From: a virus
Virus record (IMG/VR): IMGVR_UViG_3300003322_000675
Coordinates: 1-29,026 of that record
Strand: one strand, 5' to 3'
Length of the DNA stretch: 29,026 nucleotides
In this document: piece after piece, positions 6,427-26,876 of the stretch
How positions within the stretch are numbered: the stretch's first letter is position 1
Layout of the letters: each line of letters starts with the position of its first letter
Position numbers and translations under genes: made by a program
The notes under the pieces: model-generated
Seen by the model: the letters and a program-made list of their open reading frames with translations, nothing else
The model's database searches: none
What the model was told of the DNA's origin: nothing

Positions 6427-6466
6427 TTACACTTTGCCGCAACCTTAATAAAATCAGTTATTTACA
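6427..6466. repeat. Direct repeat, second copy, overlapping the tape measure stop
   Basis: A half-copy of the element: a single arm octamer (TTACACTTTGCC), then the tail with TAATAAAATCA and TTTACA, but without a palindrome. It runs into the last codons and stop of the tape measure gene, so the 3' end of that gene is partly built from repeat sequence. Confidence 0.7.
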
Positions 6467-9102
6467 AGCTTTTTGATCGCGTCGCGGGTTTTGCCGTTTT
6501 TGTCGACCTCAATCGTGAAAAATTCTCCGAAAAGACCTGATTTATCATTAATGATGATCTGTGTTTGCGGCACGGTCGCCGAAGTATTCCGCGCCAAATC
6601 AATGATCTGTTTATCCCGATTCGAGCTGTACACATCGCCGCCGCTGCCCGCATCGTTCGACCGACTGGTCTGTGACCCATACCCGCCCGAAGTCTGCCGC
6701 TTGAATGCATCGCCCGCCACCGCCCGCCCGGCAATCGCCGCCACGCCCGCGATCGAACCGTAAAGCGCCGCCGCCGTAAAATGCGCCGTCGCCTCGGCCG
6801 GATTAAAGAAAAGCGACGCAAAGCCCGCCGCGAGCTCATAAATGGCCTTTACGGCCGCTTCAGCCGCAATGGTCGCGAGCGCCGAAGCCAAGATCTTGCG
6901 CATCACGGCCGGACCGGTATCGCCATAGAGCACCCACGTTTCGACGACCGAACCGATCGCTTGCGCCACGCTTTGAAAAGCATTTTCGAGCATTCCGGCA
7001 AAATCCGCGAACATCGACGCGAGCGTCGGCAACGTTTCCTGCGCGACGCCGAAAAATCGTTCAAGGCTATCCGTCCAACCGTCAAACAGCCCCGGCTCGC
7101 CGCCGGCGTTGGCTCTGCCCGGCGTGATATTGGGGTTCGTGCCACCGGGAGTTAAGCCCTGATTTAATTTGTCTTTTTCTTCCTGAATTCTTTGGAGAAC
7201 TTCGATCGCCCGGTCACCAGTTTTAGTCATCCGTTCATCAAGCTCGTCAAGATCTTCCAAAGATTTAATTTGAAGTTCGGCCAATAATCGGCTACGTTCA
7301 ACAATTAAATTTTTATATTCTTCAGAACCTTCTTTTTGCCGATCAATTAAAAGATTAATCAGATTTAATTCACGCACGGCGAGATCTTGTTTAAAATCAA
7401 AGATTTTTTGAGCCGATGTTTGAGCGTCCGCAGTTCGACCGCCTTCGATGGCCGCATCAAAATCCCGTTTTTCAAGAGCAATACGCCTTTCAAGTTCGGC
7501 TTTCCAAACTTCAAACTTTCTTTTTTCGTTCGCTTCAAAAATCTTTAAACTTTCATCCGACTGTTTTTTCTGAGTTTTGGTGATAAGTTCTTGTGTTTCG
7601 TTTTGGGTTTTTACGAGCCGCTCGTTTGTTTCGGTTTCGCGCGCGAGCTGCTGATCTTTGAGTAGCTGGCGTTCGTTGGCCGTTTTCTTTTCATTGTCGG
7701 CGATCTTGTTTTCGACATCGGCCAGAGACTTTTCGGCTTTTTGACGTTCGGACAAAAACCAGCTATTTAATTCGCGCAAATTATCTTGAAAATCTTCGAC
7801 GTTATCGGTTTTTGCAAATTGATCTTTAAGCGCCTGTAAACTATCGCCGTAAAGTTTTGATAATTTATCGAAATAATCCTTTCTGATTTGCAGAAGCGCC
7901 GCCGCATCGCGTTTGGCGCGCTCCTCGCGCTCTTTCTGGGCTTTTTCCTCTTCTTTGCGTTGTTTCTCAAAATCGGCGAGCGCGTTCGGGTCGAACGGCT
8001 TCGGTTTGTTGACGCCGAGCGTTGCGCCAGGCTGTCGTCCTTCTTCCAGAATTTGAAACGACTGAGATTGTCCTACCTGATTAAAATTTTGTGCTGAACC
8101 GATCACGCCTTCCGACGCGCCGCTCGTCGTAATCCCCAAAATCACACGCGATAGGATCGGATGATTATTATAAAAATCGACGACTTCTTTAAACGCTTTG
8201 ATAACGCCCGAAATAACGTTGGCGGTCGTCGTTCCCCAGTCGATGACGGATTGCTTGTTGCGCGTGAACCAGGCGCTCAGATCGCGCATTCCGTCAGTCA
8301 GCACCGGCAAAAATTGAAACGCAAATTGATTAGCAAGCCCCTGCGCCTGCGCTTTGAGCGTGTCGAGCGTGTCGCCGAAATCGTCGGCCGACGCCGCGGC
8401 CTTGTCGTCGATCGCCACGCCGAGCTCTTTGGCGCGCGCGATGAGCCCCGCCATGTCGCCGTCGAAAGATTTAATAACGGGAATAATGTCAGCGCCGGAT
8501 TTGCCGAAAGCTTCGGTCGCCAATTTGATTGCAACGACCGGATTTTCGGCATCGGCAATGCGTTTGAAAACGATCGCCAGAGAGCCGTCGAGATCGTCGA
8601 TCGCTTTTTTCGGATCGAGCCCCAATCTGACCAATGAATCTTTGGCATTGTTCGAGCCCTCGGCGGCTTCGCCCAGAAGTTTCGCGAATTTGGTGACGGA
8701 ACCAGTGACGGCTTCAAGGCTCGAACCCGACTGATCGGCCGCAAATTTGAGCGACGAAAGCGTAGTCGCCGACAAGCCGGTTTTTTGAGAAGCGTCGAAA
8801 ATTGCACTACCAAAATCGGATGCTTGTTTCGCAAGGGCAAACAAAGTTACAGTCGCCCCCACTGCAACGGCTGCCATTCCTGCAATAGCTGCGCCGGCAA
8901 TGGGCATTGCTTTTCCTAAAAGTGCGGTTTGATCTGCAGATAGGCCAAGTTTACCGGCAAAATCGGTTAAAATATTGTCGCTGGTATTTTTAATGTCTTT
9001 GGTAGCTTTCTCAACATCGTCACGAAATTGCTTCACTTCGGGAGAAGCATCATTCTTACCCTTTAGATGAAAAAGTAAGCTGATTGAATCACTTCCAAGC
9101 AT
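6454..9102 (-). CDS. Tail tape measure protein
   Basis: 882 residues. This is the longest complete tail gene of the window after the portal fusion, and it sits directly after the two chaperone-like genes, the standard siphovirus order. Residues 65-93 are a small-residue hydrophobic segment (AMPIAGAAIAGMAAVAVGAT). About 370-640 is charged and heptad-like, strongly predicted coiled coil rich in K, E, Q and R. About 745-810 is a second hydrophobic, alanine-rich stretch. Tape measures set tail length and pass through the membrane during DNA entry; at the usual 0.15 nm per residue this one would give a tail of about 130 nm (inference). The ATG at 9102 follows a run of A with no strong Shine-Dalgarno. 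No peptidase or lysozyme motif was noticed. Confidence 0.92.
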   Translation of the reverse strand: MLGSDSISLLFHLKGKNDASPEVKQFRDDVEKATKDIKNTSDNILTDFAGKLGLSADQTALLGKAMPIAGAAIAGMAAVAVGATVTLFALAKQASDFGSAIFDASQKTGLSATTLSSLKFAADQSGSSLEAVTGSVTKFAKLLGEAAEGSNNAKDSLVRLGLDPKKAIDDLDGSLAIVFKRIADAENPVVAIKLATEAFGKSGADIIPVIKSFDGDMAGLIARAKELGVAIDDKAAASADDFGDTLDTLKAQAQGLANQFAFQFLPVLTDGMRDLSAWFTRNKQSVIDWGTTTANVISGVIKAFKEVVDFYNNHPILSRVILGITTSGASEGVIGSAQNFNQVGQSQSFQILEEGRQPGATLGVNKPKPFDPNALADFEKQRKEEEKAQKEREERAKRDAAALLQIRKDYFDKLSKLYGDSLQALKDQFAKTDNVEDFQDNLRELNSWFLSERQKAEKSLADVENKIADNEKKTANERQLLKDQQLARETETNERLVKTQNETQELITKTQKKQSDESLKIFEANEKRKFEVWKAELERRIALEKRDFDAAIEGGRTADAQTSAQKIFDFKQDLAVRELNLINLLIDRQKEGSEEYKNLIVERSRLLAELQIKSLEDLDELDERMTKTGDRAIEVLQRIQEEKDKLNQGLTPGGTNPNITPGRANAGGEPGLFDGWTDSLERFFGVAQETLPTLASMFADFAGMLENAFQSVAQAIGSVVETWVLYGDTGPAVMRKILASALATIAAEAAVKAIYELAAGFASLFFNPAEATAHFTAAALYGSIAGVAAIAGRAVAGDAFKRQTSGGYGSQTSRSNDAGSGGDVYSSNRDKQIIDLARNTSATVPQTQIIINDKSGLFGEFFTIEVDKNGKTRDAIKKLVNN

Positions 9103-13868: not shown

Positions 13869-15134
13869 TTACGTCAGCGTATTGACGTCGACAAACCATT
13901 CCGGCTCGGTGACTTCAAGCGCGGCTCGAAGCTCGGCCAGGATCACGAGCGCGTTGCGGATGGCGAAATCGGCATGCTGTTCAAAGAAGCGAATTACCGC
14001 ATCTTCGCGCATGTAAAGCGTCGCGCCGCCGTTGAACGCGCCGACCAGACCGCGATTGGCGGTCAGCGCCAGATTTTCAACGACGCGAACGCGCCAGACG
14101 CGCTGCGCAACGGGATCGTACACGTTCATGTAATTACCGTTGTCGTCTTTGGTCAGCTCCATTTTTTCAGCGTCGGCCGGGTTGAGACAAACCGCATCGG
14201 CCACGCCGTACGCCAGCGAAATGTCGGTGATCGCGCGACGAATGGTGTCAAGCGCCGTATCGGTCGCCTCGTAGCGCGCCGATGCCGAACCCGCCGCCCC
14301 CGAGCGGGTTTGGATGCCCGAGGTGTTGCGAATACCTCGCAAATTCGGGGCCGTCCCATTGCCTGAAACGATCTGACCTTCAAGCCGGCGCTTCAAGCCC
14401 TGAATCATCTTCATGTCAATGAGGTTTCGAAGACGCGGCACGTCCGACAAAATATTGCGCGAAGCGGCGATCCAGTGGGCGATTGTTTGAACCGGCTCGT
14501 TTTTAAGCTCGAAGCTTAAATCCGATTCCGGTTTTAAGCCGAAATTGTCCGGCGTTTCACCGGTGTCCCATTCCTTGACTTCCGCCGCCGAATTGGTGAA
14601 ACCGGTCACCGCGACGAAATCGATCGAGCTCGACGTCGTTTGCGCAACGTTCATAATGTCGAGCAGTGTCGTCGGCGCGAGTCGCGCCTGATCGCGAATT
14701 TCGGTTTGACGTTCACTGAAGACCGTGACGCCGCCTGATGCGCCGACGCTTTCGCTTAAAGCTTTAACCTCGATCGCCGGGATGTCTTTCGGCGATCGAA
14801 AACCGGACTTTTGCGCCGTCTTGAATTCTTCCGAATTAACGAGTGTCACGCCCCATTTTTGAAAGCCGTTTTTTTGCGCGGGGACAAACGGCTGCTGTTT
14901 GGGCTCGCGTTCACCATCGGCAAATTTCGCGAGATCTTCGGCCTCGTAAAGCCGCTGAATTTCGCTTTTAAGTTTTTGCCCGTCCTCAAACATCTTGTCG
15001 TAGTTTTCTTTGTCCGACGGATCGACCGAGCCTTTTTCCTCAAACTCGGTTTCCATTTTTTCGCGCAGCGCCTTAAACGCCACGTTGTCTTTTTTGAGCT
15101 TTTGCTCCAAAAATTTAATATATTTGGTTGACAT
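13869..15134 (-). CDS. Major capsid protein, HK97 fold
   Basis: 421 residues. An N-terminal helical, charged segment (about 1-105, including EQKLKKDNVAFKALREKMET and a second helix through LAKFADGERE) resembles the delta/scaffold domain removed by the prohead protease. The mature part shows family features: SGGVTVFSERQTEIRDQARL near the start, SSIDFVAVTGFTNSAAEVKE, a conserved AHWIAASRNILSDVPRLRNL spine-helix region, and the end region RFFEQHADFAIRNALVILAE before the C-terminal WFVDV. It follows the protease gene by 10 bases, with GAGG before the ATG. The cleavage site between delta domain and mature protein cannot be set by eye; it is probably near residue 100. Confidence 0.93.
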   Translation of the reverse strand: MSTKYIKFLEQKLKKDNVAFKALREKMETEFEEKGSVDPSDKENYDKMFEDGQKLKSEIQRLYEAEDLAKFADGEREPKQQPFVPAQKNGFQKWGVTLVNSEEFKTAQKSGFRSPKDIPAIEVKALSESVGASGGVTVFSERQTEIRDQARLAPTTLLDIMNVAQTTSSSIDFVAVTGFTNSAAEVKEWDTGETPDNFGLKPESDLSFELKNEPVQTIAHWIAASRNILSDVPRLRNLIDMKMIQGLKRRLEGQIVSGNGTAPNLRGIRNTSGIQTRSGAAGSASARYEATDTALDTIRRAITDISLAYGVADAVCLNPADAEKMELTKDDNGNYMNVYDPVAQRVWRVRVVENLALTANRGLVGAFNGGATLYMREDAVIRFFEQHADFAIRNALVILAELRAALEVTEPEWFVDVNTLT

Positions 15135-15144
15135 ATTTCCTCAC

Positions 15145-15975
15145 TTAAAAATCTAAAAATTGTTCTTTGCGTTTTGCTTGTGCGAACCATTCAGAATTCA
15201 CAAGTGAAGTGCTGTTTTGAGCGGCTTCGGCTTCTTTCTTTGCGGGTTCGTTGCTGGTTTTTTCTTCGTCTTCATCGGCCATTTTCGGCTGACATTCGGC
15301 GCCGAGATCGACGGCGATTTTATGCATCTGGTTGAGCAAAGCCAGATCGCTTTCGGAGTTTCGGCGACCGGCTTTGATTTGTTCCTGATGCATTAAAAAT
15401 TGTTGGTAGAGAGCGCCCAGAGGTTGAAGCTCGAACTTAAAGCCTTTGACATTGCCGACGGTGGCCGGGTTCATGCCCCAATTTACGTCGCTCGTGTCGA
15501 AAAGCTTCAGCTCGCGCAGCTCGCGCACGCGGCGACTGCCGCCGGTGGGCAGCTTTTCGTCGGTGTAATCGCATTTGACGACGTCAAATGCGTAACTCAT
15601 CTCGTCGACGTCGCCTTTGTCGATCGCCGCGAGCACCCAGTTGGCGAGCTCGTTTTCGTAATATTCCCGAACGACTTTCAGCCCGCCGGTGATAACGCCG
15701 GCCGGGTATTGCGATTTGATTTCGTCGGGAATTTCATCCGCGCCGACTTCTTTGAGATCGACAATCGTCGCGATCGGCGGCAGATTTCCGTCGTGGTTCC
15801 ATAAATGCTTAACCCGCTTAGCGGCCTCAGCAATGGTTTTCGCGAACGCGCCCGGATGCGAACGATCGTCCCACGAATCGACGTTGCCGTGAATCGCAGC
15901 AAAACCGGTTCGCTTTCGGCCGGCAGCCTTAGCTTTGATATTCGAAAACTGAAATGCTTTGAAACTTCTACTCAT
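15145..15975 (-). CDS. Prohead maturation protease, HK97/U35 family
   Basis: 276 residues. Family motifs are in order: GFAAIHGNVDSWDDRSHPGA (24-43), catalytic His61 in HLWNHDG, catalytic Ser127 in GDVDEMSYAFDV, and an acidic third member probably at E155 in RELKLFD. The C-terminus beyond about 180 is a charged linker (KMADEDEEKTSNEPAKKEAE) that may act as a targeting or scaffold extension. It cleaves the delta domain of the capsid protein and itself during head maturation. It lies directly before the capsid gene and after the portal, as in HK97-type modules. Confidence 0.92.
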   Translation of the reverse strand: MSRSFKAFQFSNIKAKAAGRKRTGFAAIHGNVDSWDDRSHPGAFAKTIAEAAKRVKHLWNHDGNLPPIATIVDLKEVGADEIPDEIKSQYPAGVITGGLKVVREYYENELANWVLAAIDKGDVDEMSYAFDVVKCDYTDEKLPTGGSRRVRELRELKLFDTSDVNWGMNPATVGNVKGFKFELQPLGALYQQFLMHQEQIKAGRRNSESDLALLNQMHKIAVDLGAECQPKMADEDEEKTSNEPAKKEAEAAQNSTSLVNSEWFAQAKRKEQFLDF

Positions 15976-16213: not shown

Positions 16214-18889
16214 TTAATCCAAAATAACAACATGAAAACATCTGCACGATGAACCGCCGAGGCATTCGGGATTCGGGACGTCCGGCAAATCGTTTTCGTC
16301 GGCGCTTTCCGTGCCGTCGGCGTCTTCGCAGTATTCACATGTGTTGTTGTCCAGAATCGCGCTGTATTGGATTCTATCCCAATTTTCGGACTGATCCTTG
16401 ATCTCATCCGAACGGCCTTTCATAATCGCCGCATTCGCGCTGTTTTTGGCCAATTGGGTAACAAATGCCGAGCTTTCCCCGGCCAATCGTTTTTTTAGCT
16501 CGTCGAAAAATCCGGCGGCATCCAAACCGAGAATTTTGAGAGCCGTAAAAATATTCACCGCTCGCGCCTGAATCTCATTAATGACTTTCGAAATCACAGA
16601 ATCAGAAATACTCGCAATCCTTTCTTCGGCTTCGTCATCAAGTAAATCTTTAAACTCAATACCTGGTACTTTTGACTTAAGACTCGTCTGAGCATTTATC
16701 TCGCGCACGATCTGCTTTCTACCGCTCTGATATGCCCCGGATAAGGATTTGCGGACGGTTTTAGCCTGTTTTTCGTTTCTTTCGAGTGTCAGCCCGAAAA
16801 TAGTCTTTTCATCTAAATCTTTGGCAGAATTAACGGCTTGATTGATTAAAGCTTCGCGATATTTGAGCAGCGAAGTTTCAAGATTAACGCTTTGCGCGTC
16901 GAGCTCCGAAACGAGAGATTTTAGATCAATCAGTTTTTCGACGGCGTTCGGTTCGCGCGAAAGCATTAATCCGTCGAACTCAAAAGTTTTTTTTTGAGAC
17001 TTTGCGCCGATTAGTTTAATGACGGTTTTGTTTCGATTTTTATCGGAGAAAATAATTTTATCAAACGCGATCGTTTGCCCGTCGAAAGTCTCGTTGCCGA
17101 CATAATTCACGCCCTTCCCTTTTTTGACATAAGCCAAAGTAAGATGCGGCACATATTCCGGATGCGTGTCGGTCGTTTCGAGATTTTCCGAGATCAATTT
17201 ATTGAGAGCGTGAAGCTCGCTCGATTCGACATCTATTTTAACGACGTCGTAATTATTTTCGCCTTTGGCCGCAAAGATTGAAGTTTTGCGCAAGGTCACT
17301 TCGAACGGCGCGACGTCCGCTAAAAGCTCTTTGAGCTCGTCGGCATTGTCGGCGTGTAACCCGAATTTAATGGTGATATGCGGTTTATCTTCGCGCGGTT
17401 CCCAATCGAGATTATCTGCCAGATCTTCGTCCGCGATAAATTCTTTGCCGAACGCCAGAATTACTTTTTTTTCGGCTGCCGGTAAATCTACCTGAGTCGA
17501 AGAAAATTCGTGAACGGTCACGGCTTTTAACTGGAATCTTTTCGGCGGTTCTTTACCGTTCGGATCGTTTTGCGGTTCGTTTGGATTTGTGCCCTGCTGA
17601 ACCGGTTTCAAAGCGATCTGGGCGCGATTCTCGGGCGTGATGGCATCGACATTGATCGGCTGCAAATAATAATCGCCTTTCGGATCGGGTTTCTTCCCGA
17701 TCGCAGCGCGATATTCGTTTAGAGTGATACCGCCGGCCTGAAAATCTTTGCGTTCGCGATCATGCATGGCGTCGAGGTCTTCGGCCAAAGCGAGCATTTG
17801 CGACAGATCCCAACCGACACGAATTTTTTCGGCCGCAATGTCTTTGATGTCTTCGAATTCAGGCAATAAAAACCAGGTCAGCCATTCCCGAAGATGTTTT
17901 AATTCGGGCGAAATTTTATTTAAGAAAAAATCTTTTAAAGCACTTTTCGCCGTCGCGTTCTGGGTTGTGTGAAGATAGCCGACGTATGCCGAAACCAAAA
18001 TAGCCGGAACGCCGAAGATCCCGCAAATTCTCGCGTCGTTTTGGGCTCTGATGTTATCGGACGCCAATTCGTCAAGCTTCGACCCGAGCGCTTCGTAATC
18101 GGCGTTGTCGTCGATGATTTTCGTGCGGTTCGAGCGCGTCGTGCGGTTCCACAGCTTTTCTTTCATCGCTGCCTGTTCGGGCGAAAGCGTACGATTAAAT
18201 TTCAAGATGCCCGACGGCACGCCCGGCCCGGCTTCGTTGCTGTCGTTATCGAGAAAGGAATTAATATAATCCGTCAGATTTTCGTCGCCTGCGATGGTAT
18301 TGGCCGCAACTTGCAGCGGCGCGAGCCCGCCGAATTCGTCCGTCAGATCAGCGCGCCGACGAATGAGCATATCTTCGGGCGAGATGTCCTGCTGATAGCC
18401 GAGCGGATGAGTGTAAACGAATTTTTCGATGCTTCGCGTGCCGTAGTTAATATACGGCGTCACGCGATTTGGATTCAAAACATAAAATTCAGTCGGGACG
18501 GCCATCGGGCGCGGGCGAATAAGCCTGATATAAACAATACCGAGCGAATATTCGCTCTGGCACATTTTTTTGCGAAAATCCAAACCGATTTCCTGAGAGT
18601 TCGGCTTTTTCATCAAAGCCGCGAGCGGATGGCCCGAAACTTTTTCCCAATCGCCCTTATTGTTTTGTTTTTCAACGATCAATTCGGCGTCGTTCATGAC
18701 GTCGGCGATCTTCGTGATACAGGCAAAAGCGAGCTCGTTGCGGCGATAAAGATCGGCCAACTTTTCGCCGGAATAAATACCTCTGCCGCGCACATTCCAA
18801 CCGACAAACTGATAAAACGCCGCCGAATCGGTCAAAGAAATTAATTTCTTTTGGCCGAATATTTTTTGAATTGATTTAATTAAGCCCAT
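16214..18889 (-). CDS. Portal protein fused to 2H phosphoesterase-like and MuF-like domains
   Basis: 891 residues, about twice the usual portal. Residues about 40-420 are an HK97-type portal (NELAFACITKIADVMNDAEL, EFYVLNPNRVTPYI, RICGIFGVPAILVS, ITLNEYRAAIGKKP). Residues about 455-640 carry two H-x-T motifs, KPHITIKFG (His504, Thr506) and VPHLTLAYV (His582, Thr584), about 78 residues apart with alternating beta and alpha, the signature of 2H phosphoesterases (2'-5' RNA ligase/LigT superfamily). Residues about 660-891 are helical and end in a MuF/SPP1 gp7-type module with YSAILDNNTCEYC and ECLGGSSCRC (Cys851, 854, 876, 882, 884). The start overlaps the terminase stop (TAATG). The portal is the DNA gate; MuF-type domains enter or line the virion, so the middle enzyme could be packaged. 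That role is inference. Confidence 0.88.
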   Translation of the reverse strand: MGLIKSIQKIFGQKKLISLTDSAAFYQFVGWNVRGRGIYSGEKLADLYRRNELAFACITKIADVMNDAELIVEKQNNKGDWEKVSGHPLAALMKKPNSQEIGLDFRKKMCQSEYSLGIVYIRLIRPRPMAVPTEFYVLNPNRVTPYINYGTRSIEKFVYTHPLGYQQDISPEDMLIRRRADLTDEFGGLAPLQVAANTIAGDENLTDYINSFLDNDSNEAGPGVPSGILKFNRTLSPEQAAMKEKLWNRTTRSNRTKIIDDNADYEALGSKLDELASDNIRAQNDARICGIFGVPAILVSAYVGYLHTTQNATAKSALKDFFLNKISPELKHLREWLTWFLLPEFEDIKDIAAEKIRVGWDLSQMLALAEDLDAMHDRERKDFQAGGITLNEYRAAIGKKPDPKGDYYLQPINVDAITPENRAQIALKPVQQGTNPNEPQNDPNGKEPPKRFQLKAVTVHEFSSTQVDLPAAEKKVILAFGKEFIADEDLADNLDWEPREDKPHITIKFGLHADNADELKELLADVAPFEVTLRKTSIFAAKGENNYDVVKIDVESSELHALNKLISENLETTDTHPEYVPHLTLAYVKKGKGVNYVGNETFDGQTIAFDKIIFSDKNRNKTVIKLIGAKSQKKTFEFDGLMLSREPNAVEKLIDLKSLVSELDAQSVNLETSLLKYREALINQAVNSAKDLDEKTIFGLTLERNEKQAKTVRKSLSGAYQSGRKQIVREINAQTSLKSKVPGIEFKDLLDDEAEERIASISDSVISKVINEIQARAVNIFTALKILGLDAAGFFDELKKRLAGESSAFVTQLAKNSANAAIMKGRSDEIKDQSENWDRIQYSAILDNNTCEYCEDADGTESADENDLPDVPNPECLGGSSCRCFHVVILD

Positions 18890-20313
18890 TAAAATATTCC
18901 GGTCGAATCGGTATCATCCATCACTAAGTATCGAAATCCGTCATACGGATCGTCGCCGCCGCGCCCTTCGTCGTCGGCGTTGACTTTCAGCACGTCGCCC
19001 GGTTTCTTCGGATTGTGAATAAGCGCCGGCAGATTTTCGATCAGCATCGTGCATCTGCGATTTATTATAACGGTGGGTTTAATGCCTTGTTTTATATCGC
19101 CGAGAAGGGTCAGGATCTTACTCGCGCCGGGCTGCCGCGAAGTGTTTGCAGGATTCAAATAAACGCCGTGTTTTGTAAAAACGTCGGCTTTCGATTCGCC
19201 GGTCTGGCTGTTGACCTCGAAACAATCCGTTCCGGCCGCAATGTTACGAAGCTGCGACGGTTTTAAATTCCAGCGCTGGCACGTCGCGGCGATCTCTTTT
19301 GCGATCTGCTCATCAAGATGCTTTCGCACCGCGCATTCGTCGAGCACGTAGATTTTGCCCTCGTATTTGTACGCCAGATAAAAAACCGCCCAGTGAATAA
19401 AACCCCAGTCGAAGCCGCCCCAGGGCATTAAGTTTTCCCAGTTCGCCGCTAAAGATTTTGGCGTGAAAAAAGCCGAGTCCGGCGCCGTGTGCAGCTCGTA
19501 ATCGAATTTGTCGAAAAACTGCCCGGCGAAAACATCCCAATTGCCGTTGAGCCACGCTTCGCGCAGCCAGCCCGTCAGCGGTTCGAGTACGGTTTTTATG
19601 TAATCGGCATTTAATTTTTTATTGTCTTTGGCAGTTGCCGGAATAAATTTAGTTTGATTTTTTTTCTCTGTTTTATTTCTGAAAGGCGTAATGAATTTTG
19701 CCTTGAACCAACCGTGACCGATACCGCCCGGATTGCTCGTGTAATAACGTCGCGGTCGAAAACCGGGTTTCGCCGAACGATTACAGGTTTTTATTTTTTC
19801 GATTTTTGATTCCGATAACTGGGTGGCTTCTTCGATGACGATGATGTCGTATTCGAGCCCGAGATAATTATCAATGTCTTTTTCGTACTGAAAATGACCG
19901 AGCAAGATGCGCGAACCGTTCGGAAAAATGATCGTCGATTTTTGCTCTTTGAACCGGTGAGGTGTAGCAAATAAAACGGATTGGCGCAGATCTTCGATAG
20001 CTTCGTTGGCCGCTTTTGCAACCTTACGCAAAAACAAAACTTTGAGCCCCGGGATTCTCTGGCAATCGTCGAGCGCGACCTGCGCAAACGTCGCGTGAGT
20101 TTTGCCGGGCCCGCGCGCGCCGCCAAAGCCGATGTCGATTGCTTCGCCGCCCAGGTCAGCCGCCCGCGCCGCGGCGTGAAACTCCAGCTGTTTCGGCTGT
20201 GGCACATAACCGGCTTTCAAAAATCTTTCGATCGTATCCCGAGGAACGCCGAGCGCTTTGGCGAGGTGCAAAAACTCAATCGTGGATTTTGGAAATATCG
20301 GTTTGGCGATCAT
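18889..20313 (-). CDS. terL: Terminase large subunit
   Basis: 474 residues. ATPase domain: Walker A GFGGARGPGKT (62-72), Walker B YDIIVIEEATQ (155-165, Glu161/162), and coupling motif YYTSNPGG (190-197). RNase H-like nuclease domain: D302 in GGFDWGF, D363 in AAGTDCFE, and acidic cluster GGDDPYDGFRY (452-462). An N-terminal segment (about 10-40, ALGVPRDTIERFLKAGYVPQ) looks like a small helix-turn-helix added before the motor. It cuts concatemers and pumps DNA through the portal coded next. It overlaps the small membrane protein upstream by ATGA and the portal downstream by TAATG, indicating tight translational coupling. Confidence 0.96.
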   Translation of the reverse strand: MIAKPIFPKSTIEFLHLAKALGVPRDTIERFLKAGYVPQPKQLEFHAAARAADLGGEAIDIGFGGARGPGKTHATFAQVALDDCQRIPGLKVLFLRKVAKAANEAIEDLRQSVLFATPHRFKEQKSTIIFPNGSRILLGHFQYEKDIDNYLGLEYDIIVIEEATQLSESKIEKIKTCNRSAKPGFRPRRYYTSNPGGIGHGWFKAKFITPFRNKTEKKNQTKFIPATAKDNKKLNADYIKTVLEPLTGWLREAWLNGNWDVFAGQFFDKFDYELHTAPDSAFFTPKSLAANWENLMPWGGFDWGFIHWAVFYLAYKYEGKIYVLDECAVRKHLDEQIAKEIAATCQRWNLKPSQLRNIAAGTDCFEVNSQTGESKADVFTKHGVYLNPANTSRQPGASKILTLLGDIKQGIKPTVIINRRCTMLIENLPALIHNPKKPGDVLKVNADDEGRGGDDPYDGFRYLVMDDTDSTGIF

Positions 20314-22942: not shown

Positions 22943-23602
22943 TTAATTCTCCAAAATATTTAATTTATGCTTGTAAAAATGCTTTCTCGCCATTTCGAGA
23001 ACAAGGCATAGCCTTGTTCTAATTTTAGAAATCAAAGAAGTTTGTTCGTTGCAGATCGTGCAAACGCAAACATCGTCGGAACCGACGAGCTTGATTTGAA
23101 CGTGCTTCCAAAAACTCTGATTTTTCTTAACGTCTTTCCAAAATAATTTCTCAGCCATTTTTACTTCTTTGTCCGCTAATTTTTCCAAAACTATTAAGCC
23201 GGATTTTGTTCGCCGCCCTGTTCGTCGCCATCCCGCCATAATGAAGCAATAACCGGGATTACTGGATTTAATTTTTTTCGCATTGACATAGGTATAATGC
23301 CTTTCACCAGGCCAGCAGAAATCAGCGACTCGGTCAGCCTGTCGGATAAGCTCAGACGAGAGATACGGGCTTTCGTTTCGGAAGATCGCGCAGTTGATGC
23401 CCTGTTCGCCCGCATCGTCGATAAACTTTCGCCAAACAAAGTAGGCGTCGCCGTCGAAGGTTCGAAGCGCAATAACTTCGCCGGGGCCGACGCATTGCGT
23501 TCGTTTTCGCCCGTCTTTGTATTTGTAGGCCGAATAATGTCTTTCATAAAATTCCAGTAAACCGGCGTCGCCGTCTTTCGTAAGCCACCAAAACAATGTC
23601 AT
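22943..23602 (-). CDS. GNAT-like conserved phage protein with C-terminal extension
   Basis: 219 residues. I prefer ATG 23602 (ATGA overlap with the J-domain gene) over a GTG two codons earlier. Residues about 15-140 match a conserved phage pattern: GPGEVIALRTFDGDAYFVWR, INCAIFRNES, SSELIRQAD, RHYTYVNAKKI, SNPGYCFIMAGWRRTGR, SGLIVLEK. The NPGYCF..AGWR segment recalls GNAT-type acetyltransferase-like folds, but the acetyl-CoA loop is not clear, so activity is uncertain. The last 75 residues (MAEKLFWKDVKKNQSFWKHV, then VCVCTICNEQ) look like a separate addition with a CxxC. A perfect 10-bp hairpin lies in the last part of the gene (22998-23020). Confidence 0.65.
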   Translation of the reverse strand: MTLFWWLTKDGDAGLLEFYERHYSAYKYKDGRKRTQCVGPGEVIALRTFDGDAYFVWRKFIDDAGEQGINCAIFRNESPYLSSELIRQADRVADFCWPGERHYTYVNAKKIKSSNPGYCFIMAGWRRTGRRTKSGLIVLEKLADKEVKMAEKLFWKDVKKNQSFWKHVQIKLVGSDDVCVCTICNEQTSLISKIRTRLCLVLEMARKHFYKHKLNILEN

Positions 23603-24453
23603 ACCCACATCAGCGAAAAACTGTCGCCGTCCCAGTAAGAAACCATTATTTGACCGTAATCATTGGTGATGTCGCGCCATTCGAGAACCTCTTCAACAAT
23701 TAGCTGGCCGAGCTCGCGCCGCGCTTTTACGCGCAAGTCGCCGCACCGGAACGGCGGCACGAAAGACGCGTATTTCGAGGCCTGCGGAGTCATTTTGGCC
23801 ATTCGTTCAAACGCGAGACCGGCGTTGTATTTGTTGCGTAATTCTTGATTCGAAAGCACGTCGTAAGCCTGTTTGATCTTTTCGAACATCTCGCGCGCGT
23901 TCTCTTCGCGGCAGATGTCGGGATGCCAGACGCGCGCCGCTCTTTTATAAGCCGTCTTGATCTCGACGCCCGACGCCTTTTCGTCGCATCCCAGAAGCCC
24001 GTAGAGCGTCCCGGCGTTTTTGTCGGTCTGTTTGAACCAGGCGCGCAGAACGCTTTCGGGGATCTTCGCCGACCACGAACCCGAAGCGTGAACGTTCGAA
24101 ACCTCGGCCTTGCAGTTGGCGACGTAATCGGCGCGAAACTCGCAGATAAAGCTCTCGGCCGCGGCGCCGATGATTGTCGGCAAAACACAGTCGCCGCCGT
24201 AATGCTCGTCGCAGAGCCGCTTTAATTCGCCGCCGTAAGCCGCGCCGACGAGCCAGCATTTCGAAGTGTTGTCCCACGCCCGCGCCGTTGCCGGGATATA
24301 ATTTTTGAGTTGCTCGACGAATTTCGCGTTGTACGGCGACCGGACTTTATACCCGCCGTTCTCGGCCGTGATCGCCACGGCCGGCGAACTGCCCGAGCTT
24401 CTCCCGCAAGCGAAAAGCGTCCCCTGATTTCCCATATTTACTAAGATTGCCAT
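23599..24453 (-). CDS. HARP-like plus J-domain (DnaJ-type) protein
   Basis: 284 residues. Residues 149-213 are a J-domain: TLYGLLGCDEKASGVEIKTA, the essential HPD at 177-179 (VWHPDICREE), then FEKIKQAYDVLSNQELRNKY. The J-domain stimulates Hsp70 (DnaK) ATPase, so it could redirect host DnaK to phage complexes. Residues about 36-90 (YKVRSPYNAKFVEQLKNYIP, RAWDNTSKCWLVG) resemble the HARP domain, known for DNA annealing in SMARCAL1-type proteins; this is my reading of a short pattern. The C-terminal 60 residues are unknown. GGAG precedes the ATG, and the leader directly adjoins the tail of palindrome copy 3. It lies downstream of the primase-helicase, so a part in replisome assembly is plausible. 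Confidence 0.82.
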   Translation of the reverse strand: MAILVNMGNQGTLFACGRSSGSSPAVAITAENGGYKVRSPYNAKFVEQLKNYIPATARAWDNTSKCWLVGAAYGGELKRLCDEHYGGDCVLPTIIGAAAESFICEFRADYVANCKAEVSNVHASGSWSAKIPESVLRAWFKQTDKNAGTLYGLLGCDEKASGVEIKTAYKRAARVWHPDICREENAREMFEKIKQAYDVLSNQELRNKYNAGLAFERMAKMTPQASKYASFVPPFRCGDLRVKARRELGQLIVEEVLEWRDITNDYGQIMVSYWDGDSFSLMWV

Positions 24454-24899: not shown

Positions 24900-26876
24900 C
24901 TAATCGTCGTCTTTGTCGTAAAAATTCTTTGGTTTTTGTACCGAACTTGTCTTCAAATCTTTGCCGCAATACTGACCGTGTTTCGGGCGCTCGATAAAAC
25001 CGTCTTTGAAAAGTTCGTTAAGGGTTTTCTTCACCATATCCGAGCCGAACTGGTCTTCAAATTTCGTGATAACGTCGGCGGTCGAAACGGTGTCGGGATA
25101 AACGATGGTTTCGAAAAACGCGCGTAAGACCTGATAAGCCGTTTTCTTCGGCGGCGGCGGGACGATGGTCGTGTGGTGAAACCAGCGATCGTCTTTGAGC
25201 GCAAAAACTTCCCGGTAATTTTGCCCGCCGTCGGTTTTGCGTTTGGCGCATTCGACCGTCACCGGCTCGCCTTTCGAGACGTCGCCGAACATATTTATTA
25301 CCGTTCGCGAAAGCGCCTGAAGCGCCGACGCGCCGCGCCCGGCATGAACGCCCGCCGCTTCGATCTCGGTCTGTTTGCCTTTGCCGTAATGGTGCGCGAA
25401 CAAAAACGCGCAGTCGCCTTTCGAAGCCATCTTCAAAAGCGGCTTGATAACTTTTTTCGTGACCTCGGCGTTCGAATTTTCGTCGTTCAAGTCATACGCG
25501 GCCGAAACGTTGTCGACGAAAATAAACTCGACGCCGTTTTGTTGGATCAAACTGTTCGCCCATTTCTCGTGCGTGTTGAATTGAAAGAGCTCGCCGCCCA
25601 TCAGCCCTTTTGGGATCACTATTAAATTTTTCTTGATGACGTCTTTTTCAAGCGGCGTAAAAATTTCGAACATTTCGGCGAGATCGCGCTGAACGTCCTG
25701 AGCATCGGATTCGAAATCGAAATAAGCTATCCGGATCGGCCGGCCGCCTTCGTAGAACGGCAGAAACGCGCGGCCCGCGGCCATGCAGAGCCCGACGTTG
25801 CGCAGCAGGGTCGTTTTTCCGGCATTGGTAGCGGCTTGAATTATCGCGATGTCTTTTTTGCCGATGTGAAAACTCAAAATCTCTTTCGGCTCGAAAACGG
25901 TCGTCAAAAGATCGCCGAGCAGGTAAGGCTTTAACGTGTTTTCGTAGTCGGGCGCGCCCGGGTCGTCGTCGCTGACCGGCGCTTGTTGAATATTAGGCGC
26001 ATAGCGGCCGATCGAGCGCGCGATTTGATTGACTTCCGCGTCGTCGAGCGGCGGTTTGCAAAGCCGCTGATTCTCGGCTTGAAGGGCGTAATAGATCGAA
26101 TCTTCCGAAAAGCCGTGATGCCGCATTGCGCCCGCTAAAGCAATGAGCGTATTGTTTCGGGAGCCGAAATTGATCGCGTCCGGCACTTTCAAGCCGTCGG
26201 CGGGCGGGGGAACGAAAAGACCGTTTGCACTGGCCTGCGCATGGCCGTTTCCGTTCCCATTCTGCGAGCCATGGGTTGTCACAGAATTCAATTTTTCGAC
26301 CCATTCGGCCGGGAATTCCAAAAGCGTCGAGACGTCGTTCAGAAATTCATAATTTTTACCCGAAACGTGAAGACTCGGCGGCGCGACCACATAGCCGCCT
26401 TCACCGCGGACGTCGATAAACTCGGCCAGCTTTGAAGTCGAGTTTTTGATGATCTGCCCGGCCGGCAACTTATAATAAAAATGCAGCCCGCCGCCGGTTT
26501 TGATCTCGGGCGTCGATTCGAAAACGTCCTGATCAATATCGCCGATATATAAATCGAAAATATTGCCGCCTTTAGCTTCGTCGATGTCGAGAACGACGAG
26601 GCCCGAAACGCTGCCGGTCGCGATGCCGATATTGGCGCAAGGCATTCCCAATGCGCCCCACCATGCTCGAATTTGCGCTTCGTCTTTGGTCGCGTCCAGA
26701 ACGCCGCGCGGCACGAGCGACGCGACCGGATGCTTGCCGGGGCTTTTGCAGTCGGCCTTTTGGCACGTGCAGGCGCCCGTTTCGATCGAATGGCACGGAA
26801 ACACCGGCCATCCCCACTCGCGGGCGTAATTGAGCGCGAATTCTAAAATCGTGATTTGTCGAGTTTCTGGCGTCAT
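24900..26876 (-). CDS. Bifunctional primase-polymerase / RepA-like AAA helicase
   Basis: 658 residues. Prim-Pol domain about 10-195: a zinc-type cluster CTCQKADCKSPGKHP (36-50), metal-binding VLDID (95-99), GGGLHFYY (128-135) with the catalytic-site His, and VRGEGGYVVAPPS (156-168). A helical linker about 235-292 (FGSRNNTLIALAGAMRHHGF, DDAEVNQIARSI) resembles primase C-terminal domains. RecA/RepA-like ATPase from about 330: Walker A AATNAGKTT (348-356), FDFES (386-390), Walker B FIFVDN (451-456), and FLFAHHYGKGKQ with the following RGASALQALSRT. The last 90 residues look like a winged helix (TADVITKFEDQFGSDMVKKT). It should unwind and prime phage DNA at the fork. The nearby palindromes are candidate origin sites. 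Confidence 0.92.
   Translation of the reverse strand: MTPETRQITILEFALNYAREWGWPVFPCHSIETGACTCQKADCKSPGKHPVASLVPRGVLDATKDEAQIRAWWGALGMPCANIGIATGSVSGLVVLDIDEAKGGNIFDLYIGDIDQDVFESTPEIKTGGGLHFYYKLPAGQIIKNSTSKLAEFIDVRGEGGYVVAPPSLHVSGKNYEFLNDVSTLLEFPAEWVEKLNSVTTHGSQNGNGNGHAQASANGLFVPPPADGLKVPDAINFGSRNNTLIALAGAMRHHGFSEDSIYYALQAENQRLCKPPLDDAEVNQIARSIGRYAPNIQQAPVSDDDPGAPDYENTLKPYLLGDLLTTVFEPKEILSFHIGKKDIAIIQAATNAGKTTLLRNVGLCMAAGRAFLPFYEGGRPIRIAYFDFESDAQDVQRDLAEMFEIFTPLEKDVIKKNLIVIPKGLMGGELFQFNTHEKWANSLIQQNGVEFIFVDNVSAAYDLNDENSNAEVTKKVIKPLLKMASKGDCAFLFAHHYGKGKQTEIEAAGVHAGRGASALQALSRTVINMFGDVSKGEPVTVECAKRKTDGGQNYREVFALKDDRWFHHTTIVPPPPKKTAYQVLRAFFETIVYPDTVSTADVITKFEDQFGSDMVKKTLNELFKDGFIERPKHGQYCGKDLKTSSVQKPKNFYDKDDD

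Follow-up and report, generated by a model that had tools for sequence, protein, structure and literature searches.

A paper of 2017 (PMC5512222) already reports 2H phosphoesterase domains joined to MuF or to portals, and its available text proposes either an RNase role or the degradation of oligonucleotides, to counter nucleotide signals; such fusions appear again in 2022 (PMC9503650), in passages that propose packaging, injection and the countering of such signals. A second point of reference is Acb1, which cleaves CBASS signals with an H-x-T/H-x-T tetrad, the same as that of the protein described here, with the bases stacked on Y12, W74, F107 and W147 and adenine read by E141 (PMC9117128).

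We analyzed a viral DNA stretch of 29,026 nucleotides (IMG/VR record IMGVR_UViG_3300003322_000675), hereafter the window, in which one gene had been predicted to encode portal, 2H-like and MuF-like parts in a single protein. The original prediction had doubted whether the 2H insertion was a described system; judging from the available text of the two papers, which name 2H-MuF/portal fusions in general terms, both the portal-2H fusion and the counter-signalling idea are already in print as a kind. What is added here is the spread of the 2H domain over several portal families and a terminase-2H-portal gene order, neither of which is found in the available text of those papers.

Portal, 2H domain and MuF-like end in one protein

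The fusion gene lies on the minus strand (16214-18889, with its ATG at 18889 and its stop ending at 16214) and encodes a protein of 891 amino acids. It is preceded on the same strand by the gene for the terminase large subunit (18889-20313; PF04466, E 1.5e-12; phrog_979, E 1.9e-29), whose stop codon shares one base with the ATG of the fusion gene (TAATG). Downstream, again on the minus strand, are genes for an S78 prohead protease (15145-15975; PF04586, E 2.2e-11; phrog_80, E 1.4e-25) and an HK97-type major capsid protein (13869-15134; PF05065, E 2e-31; phrog_10, E 1.1e-49), followed by connector genes. Past the connector genes, an 882-aa ORF (6454-9102) has neither a Pfam nor a PADLOC match and perhaps encodes a tail protein; elsewhere in the window, a DnaJ-domain protein (23599-24453, E 7.6e-18) adjoins a primase-polymerase gene (24900-26876). 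PADLOC gave no match for the fusion protein.

The three predicted parts were all recovered. Residues 54-397 (17699-18730, minus strand) form a portal domain (PF04860, E 4.7e-36; phrog_12 portal, E 3e-44). The Phage_portal profile scored 125 bits, above its cut-off of 39.1, and this score, together with the terminase, protease and capsid genes alongside, identifies the portal as HK97-type. At the other end, residues 811-891 (16217-16459, minus strand) carry the five cysteines that had been predicted (C851, C854, C876, C882 and C884), the remaining three of the protein (C57, C110 and C289) being in the portal part. The Phage_Mu_F model PF04233 matched residues 811-884 (E 1.8e-4) at 22.7 bits, below its curated cut-off of 29.6, and for this reason we call this end MuF-like rather than MuF. 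The assignment is strengthened by the five cysteines, which follow the pattern C851-x2-C854 ... C882-x-C884 with a helical leader common to accepted MuF domains, and by a profile comparison of the C-terminus with those domains (hhalign E 3.8e-5, probability 71).

Between these parts is a 2H phosphoesterase domain (residues 460-630; 17000-17512, minus strand), matched by PF13563 at residues 500-591 (E 3.9e-11), by LigT_PEase (E 1.5e-8) and by phrog_755, named 'RNA ligase' (E 1.2e-8). It contains two H-x-T motifs where they had been predicted, in the contexts H504-I-T506-I (H504-I-T506 at 17372-17380, minus strand) and H582-L-T584-L (H582-L-T584 at 17138-17146, minus strand). Two H-h-T-h motifs 60-110 residues apart were obtained in 2 of 20,000 shuffles of the fusion protein. 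The domain is bordered by two linkers that have low confidence in a full-length model, one rich in Pro, Asn and Gln (residues 409-461; 17507-17665, minus strand) and the other at residues 628-671; with a pTM of 0.33, this model is too poor to place the domains.

Among the proteins of the phage collection, the nearest full-length relative has 618 residues and no 2H insert (UOF76901.1, from Bacteriophage sp. ctLpZ231, MW202444). Its portal aligns with residues 55-467 (27% identity), that is up to about the first linker, and its MuF domain with residues 664-891 (29% identity); its gene has the same neighbours, namely terminase, protease and capsid. Since a portal-MuF protein exists without it, the 2H domain, as judged from this alignment, is an accessory, inserted after the portal core and ahead of the MuF-like part.

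Fold and conservation of the 2H domain

The window 2H domain alone gave no matches among viral contigs, where a two-row alignment was needed to open the family, and a plasmid search for relatives gave no match. Scanning IMG/VR with sequence patterns yielded 406 relatives. The best 80 were retrieved, and conservation was scored in 69 non-redundant relatives; it should be noted that these were picked by closeness to the query alignment and that counts within the set are not population frequencies. Invariant in 69 of 69 were H504, T506, D548, P581 and H582, all absent from the search patterns, and G510, T584, A586, Y587 and G591, where the patterns contained T584, A586, Y587, K589, G591 and G593, whose conservation is partly by selection. 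The same applies to the signature strand of the subfamily, FSSTQVD (residues 462-468; 17486-17506, minus strand), in which S464, T465 and Q466 are conserved in 88%, 90% and 97% of the relatives, respectively, with FSSTQV itself part of the search pattern.

An AlphaFold2 model of the domain built from 11 sequences (pLDDT 83.7, pTM 0.78) matched 118 PDB chains at Z >= 5, with CPDase, LigT and Usb1 at the top (Deinococcus CPDase 15.3, Thermus TT0787 14.9, E. coli LigT 14.6 and Usb1 14.0). LigT, AKAP18 and Acb1 had been named in the original prediction as the structures to compare, and the model has the 2H fold they share, with Z scores of 12.1 for AKAP18 and 12.7 for FBB1 Acb1. The whole-domain alignment to LigT and CPDase implies that the two H-x-T motifs probably oppose each other across one pocket.

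Sequence profiles gave a different order. When a profile of 12 relatives was compared with solved structures, the top match was the Acb1 of Burkholderia phage BCSR5 (E 2.9e-9), followed by B. subtilis YjcG (E 1.2e-4), with FBB1 Acb1 at E 0.0097. All 12 members of the profile matched the Pfam Acb1 model at E-values up to 0.01. The window domain scored 24.1 bits with this model (PF23474) and did not reach the cut-off of 27, which is exceeded by some relatives, e.g. L076 with 35.3 bits. Membership of the 2H superfamily is thus settled, but the subfamily is not, the sequence leaning towards Acb1 and the structure towards the cyclic phosphodiesterases.

Alignment to T4 Acb1 placed W74 at F539 (F in 68 of 69 relatives) and F107 at H576 (H in 42, Y in 12 and F in 9 of 69). 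Y12 probably corresponds to S464, the first strand having been aligned by eye, while W147 and E141 were not alignable. An aromatic residue is thus kept at one of the three mappable stacking positions; His predominates at the second, and the third probably has Ser. As far as this alignment goes the substrate cannot be read from the mapped base-contact residues.

Association with portals and other head genes

The fusion partners of the subfamily to which the window domain belongs (signature "[FY]SSTQVNLP") are portals of four families (one match marginal), MuF, a prohead protease and giant polyvalent proteins. There are 17 portal fusions in the set of 69 relatives. HK97-type portals are joined to 2H in the window, L058, L053, L036 and L090, and in L010 with a weak portal score. 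Mu-type portals are joined to it in L050, L052, L057, L072 and the near-copies L032 and L033, some of these portal matches being under the curated cut-off (L050, L033) and L032 being assigned by its likeness to L033. The PF06381-type portal is the partner in L066, L075, L094 and L097, and a lambda-type portal in L059, the marginal case, at 0.1 bit under the cut-off. MuF and 2H occur together without a recognised portal in L049, L012 and L093, and many other relatives are in polyvalent-type proteins of 1,500-3,600 residues.

L011, L051 and L081 each have a stand-alone 2H gene that is flanked by the large terminase gene on one side and a T4-like portal gene on the other. The huge-phage record L002 has a stand-alone 2H gene between putative terminase and portal ORFs, assigned by place and likeness rather than by profile, and in L045 the gene comes after the terminase. 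No terminase or portal neighbours of the 2H gene were seen for L031, L085, L091 and L096.

In the 2H tree, the window domain is nearest to polyvalent copies and not to L058. A tree forcing the HK97-portal fusions together was 42 log units worse (AU p 0.064); a single origin of all these fusions is thus disfavoured on the tree, though not rejected at 5%. We take the fusions as independent because the portal families differ, and not from the HK97 tree test.

Other arrangements were seen in the same survey. In L035 (5305-8007), a prohead protease S77-like domain (below cut-off) is followed by the same 2H subfamily, and in L068 (3654-6534) the end of a portal ORF shares 56 bases with a 2H ORF that is read in another frame, so that the two are either a coupled pair of genes or one fusion with a frameshift. 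L057 (4687-7998) encodes a protein of 1103 aa that combines a Mu-type portal with the same 2H domain, with DUF5661 and with the catalytic core of a type IB topoisomerase, and L075 (537-4340) one of 1267 aa that has 2H together with a PF06381-type portal and a zeta-toxin-like kinase. The cultured Tunturiibacter phage Tunturi_5 has gp321 (L100, 4606-8694), with SprT-like, 2H, ART-PolyVal and GNAT domains, near a head-tail connector gene; gp321 is annotated as a MutT/NUDIX hydrolase, and a Nudix match is absent among those listed.

Possible roles and comparison with known systems

The explanation we favour, with confidence a little short of even, is that of an active phosphodiesterase tethered to a working portal and acting against host nucleotide signals, mainly in the producing cell. 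The computation shows the domain composition, a 2H fold whose catalytic tetrad is invariant, weakly structured linkers on both sides and the repeated association with portals. The fusion protein would be a working portal subunit with the 2H phosphodiesterase inserted before the MuF-like end, and catalysis would be metal-independent, via the two H-x-T motifs. In known portals the C-terminal side faces inwards, which suggests that the 2H domain is on the capsid-lumen side. The substrate may be a host nucleotide signal, either a cyclic or a 2'-5' linked oligonucleotide, and second-messenger defences such as CBASS would be blunted by its cleavage.

The main site of action would be the producing cell, where late-made portal subunits would be exposed to the cytoplasm as heads assemble; the next cell is a possible second site, if the prohead protease frees the 2H domain for ejection. 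Action at DNA entry, as originally proposed, is doubtful: the portal is expected to remain with the capsid, outside the cell, at infection, and the intact fusion is thus unlikely to act in a newly infected cell. It is more plausible that the domain acts in the producing cell, or once released by proteolysis, than that an intact portal does so at entry, and the producing-cell route is favoured because it requires no extra assumption. There are reports, cited in a review (PMC10419184), of CBASS escape mapping to a capsid gene; that producing-cell action would fit them is speculation.

The main and serious rival to signal cleavage is RNA processing, which is possible although we lean against it. 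The domain would open 2',3'-cyclic phosphate ends, like LigT and CPDase, or trim RNA, like Usb1; in variants of this idea it would heal tRNAs cut by host anticodon nucleases or degrade host RNA. Consistent with this, the top fold matches are CPDase, LigT and Usb1, all with higher scores than Acb1, and the Pfam, PHROGs and NCBIfam names are 2'-5' RNA ligase or RNA 2',3'-cyclic phosphodiesterase. Some relatives also have RNA-related partners: a 1574-aa protein (L012, 4290-9014) combines MuF and 2H with a CCA-adding enzyme (PolyA_pol head, HD), which hints at work on RNA ends, and the polyvalent-type protein L004 unites 2H with the RNase domain PBECR1. The available text of PMC5512222 also puts forward an RNase role. 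Against RNA processing, the best solved match of the sequence profile is a phage Acb1, and RNA ligases are found in only 4 of 50 subfamily records (PF09414 in three, RtcB in one), a count that includes fragments and has no background rate and that agrees with the remark in PMC5512222 that these 2H versions were never seen with RNA ligases; because they are so rare, RNA repair is not an obvious partner of 2H. Signal cleavage counts in its favour this Acb1-leaning profile, the fold matches, the invariant H504, T506, H582, T584 and D548, the fusions to portals, MuF and a prohead protease, and the stand-alone copies near the portal.

A further proposal, on the unlikely side, concerns delivery and is compatible with either substrate: the prohead protease would cut the linkers, and the 2H(-MuF) piece would be packed, ejected with the DNA and act on entry. 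Downstream of the fusion, the first head gene with an annotation is that of the S78 protease, both linkers are of low confidence in the model, and QLK-A in the first linker (453-456) seems similar, as matched by eye, to a VK-A just ahead of the conserved core of the capsid protein. The same 2H subfamily is present in giant polyvalent proteins, for which the available text of PMC5512222 argues injection. However, a conserved protease site sought by eye in the portal-2H linkers of the fused proteins was not found, and the full-length model on which the linkers are judged is the poor one described above. Finally, a structural role, in which 2H helps the portal crown to pack or to contact DNA or RNA while its catalysis is unimportant, would suit an accessory domain but is very improbable, because the invariance of the full tetrad in 69 diverged relatives in many protein contexts is not expected of filler.

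Returning to the signal phosphodiesterase, a wider version of it is that a distinct 2H subfamily has repeatedly been joined to unrelated portals, or kept beside the portal gene, because it works there, concentrated where heads are assembled or within them, silencing signalling defences locally; in this full form we consider it rather unlikely. If defence signals are indeed cut, a counter-defence would be built into an essential virion part instead of a separate protein, and the repeated attachment of the same domain to portals of different families would be explained. The survey yields concrete testable proteins, one of them in a cultured phage (Tunturi_5).

Globally, the window 2H domain resembles Acb1 (T4 57B, Erwinia phage FBB1, Burkholderia phage BCSR5) in its fold, its HxT/HxT tetrad and its phage origin. 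Acb1, however, is an enzyme on its own, some 150 residues long, whereas the window domain is joined to a portal, has longer ends and the FSSTQV strand, and presents only part of the Acb1 base-stacking residues. The structures of LigT/ThpR and of plant or Deinococcus CPDase match the whole domain, with Z 13-15 across some 150-164 residues, but these proteins are only 13-18% identical to the window domain and are cellular, without a tie to virion proteins. The fusions in the available text of PMC5512222 and PMC9503650 share the general architecture of the window protein, and the role proposed for them is also the one considered here, a counter to host nucleotide signalling or an RNase. The 883-aa protein of L058 (IMGVR_UViG_3300020215_000430) has the same portal-2H-MuF order and is 31% identical over 873 aligned columns; it comes from a separate phage, on a short contig of 8.7 kb, and is otherwise of the same kind as the window fusion.
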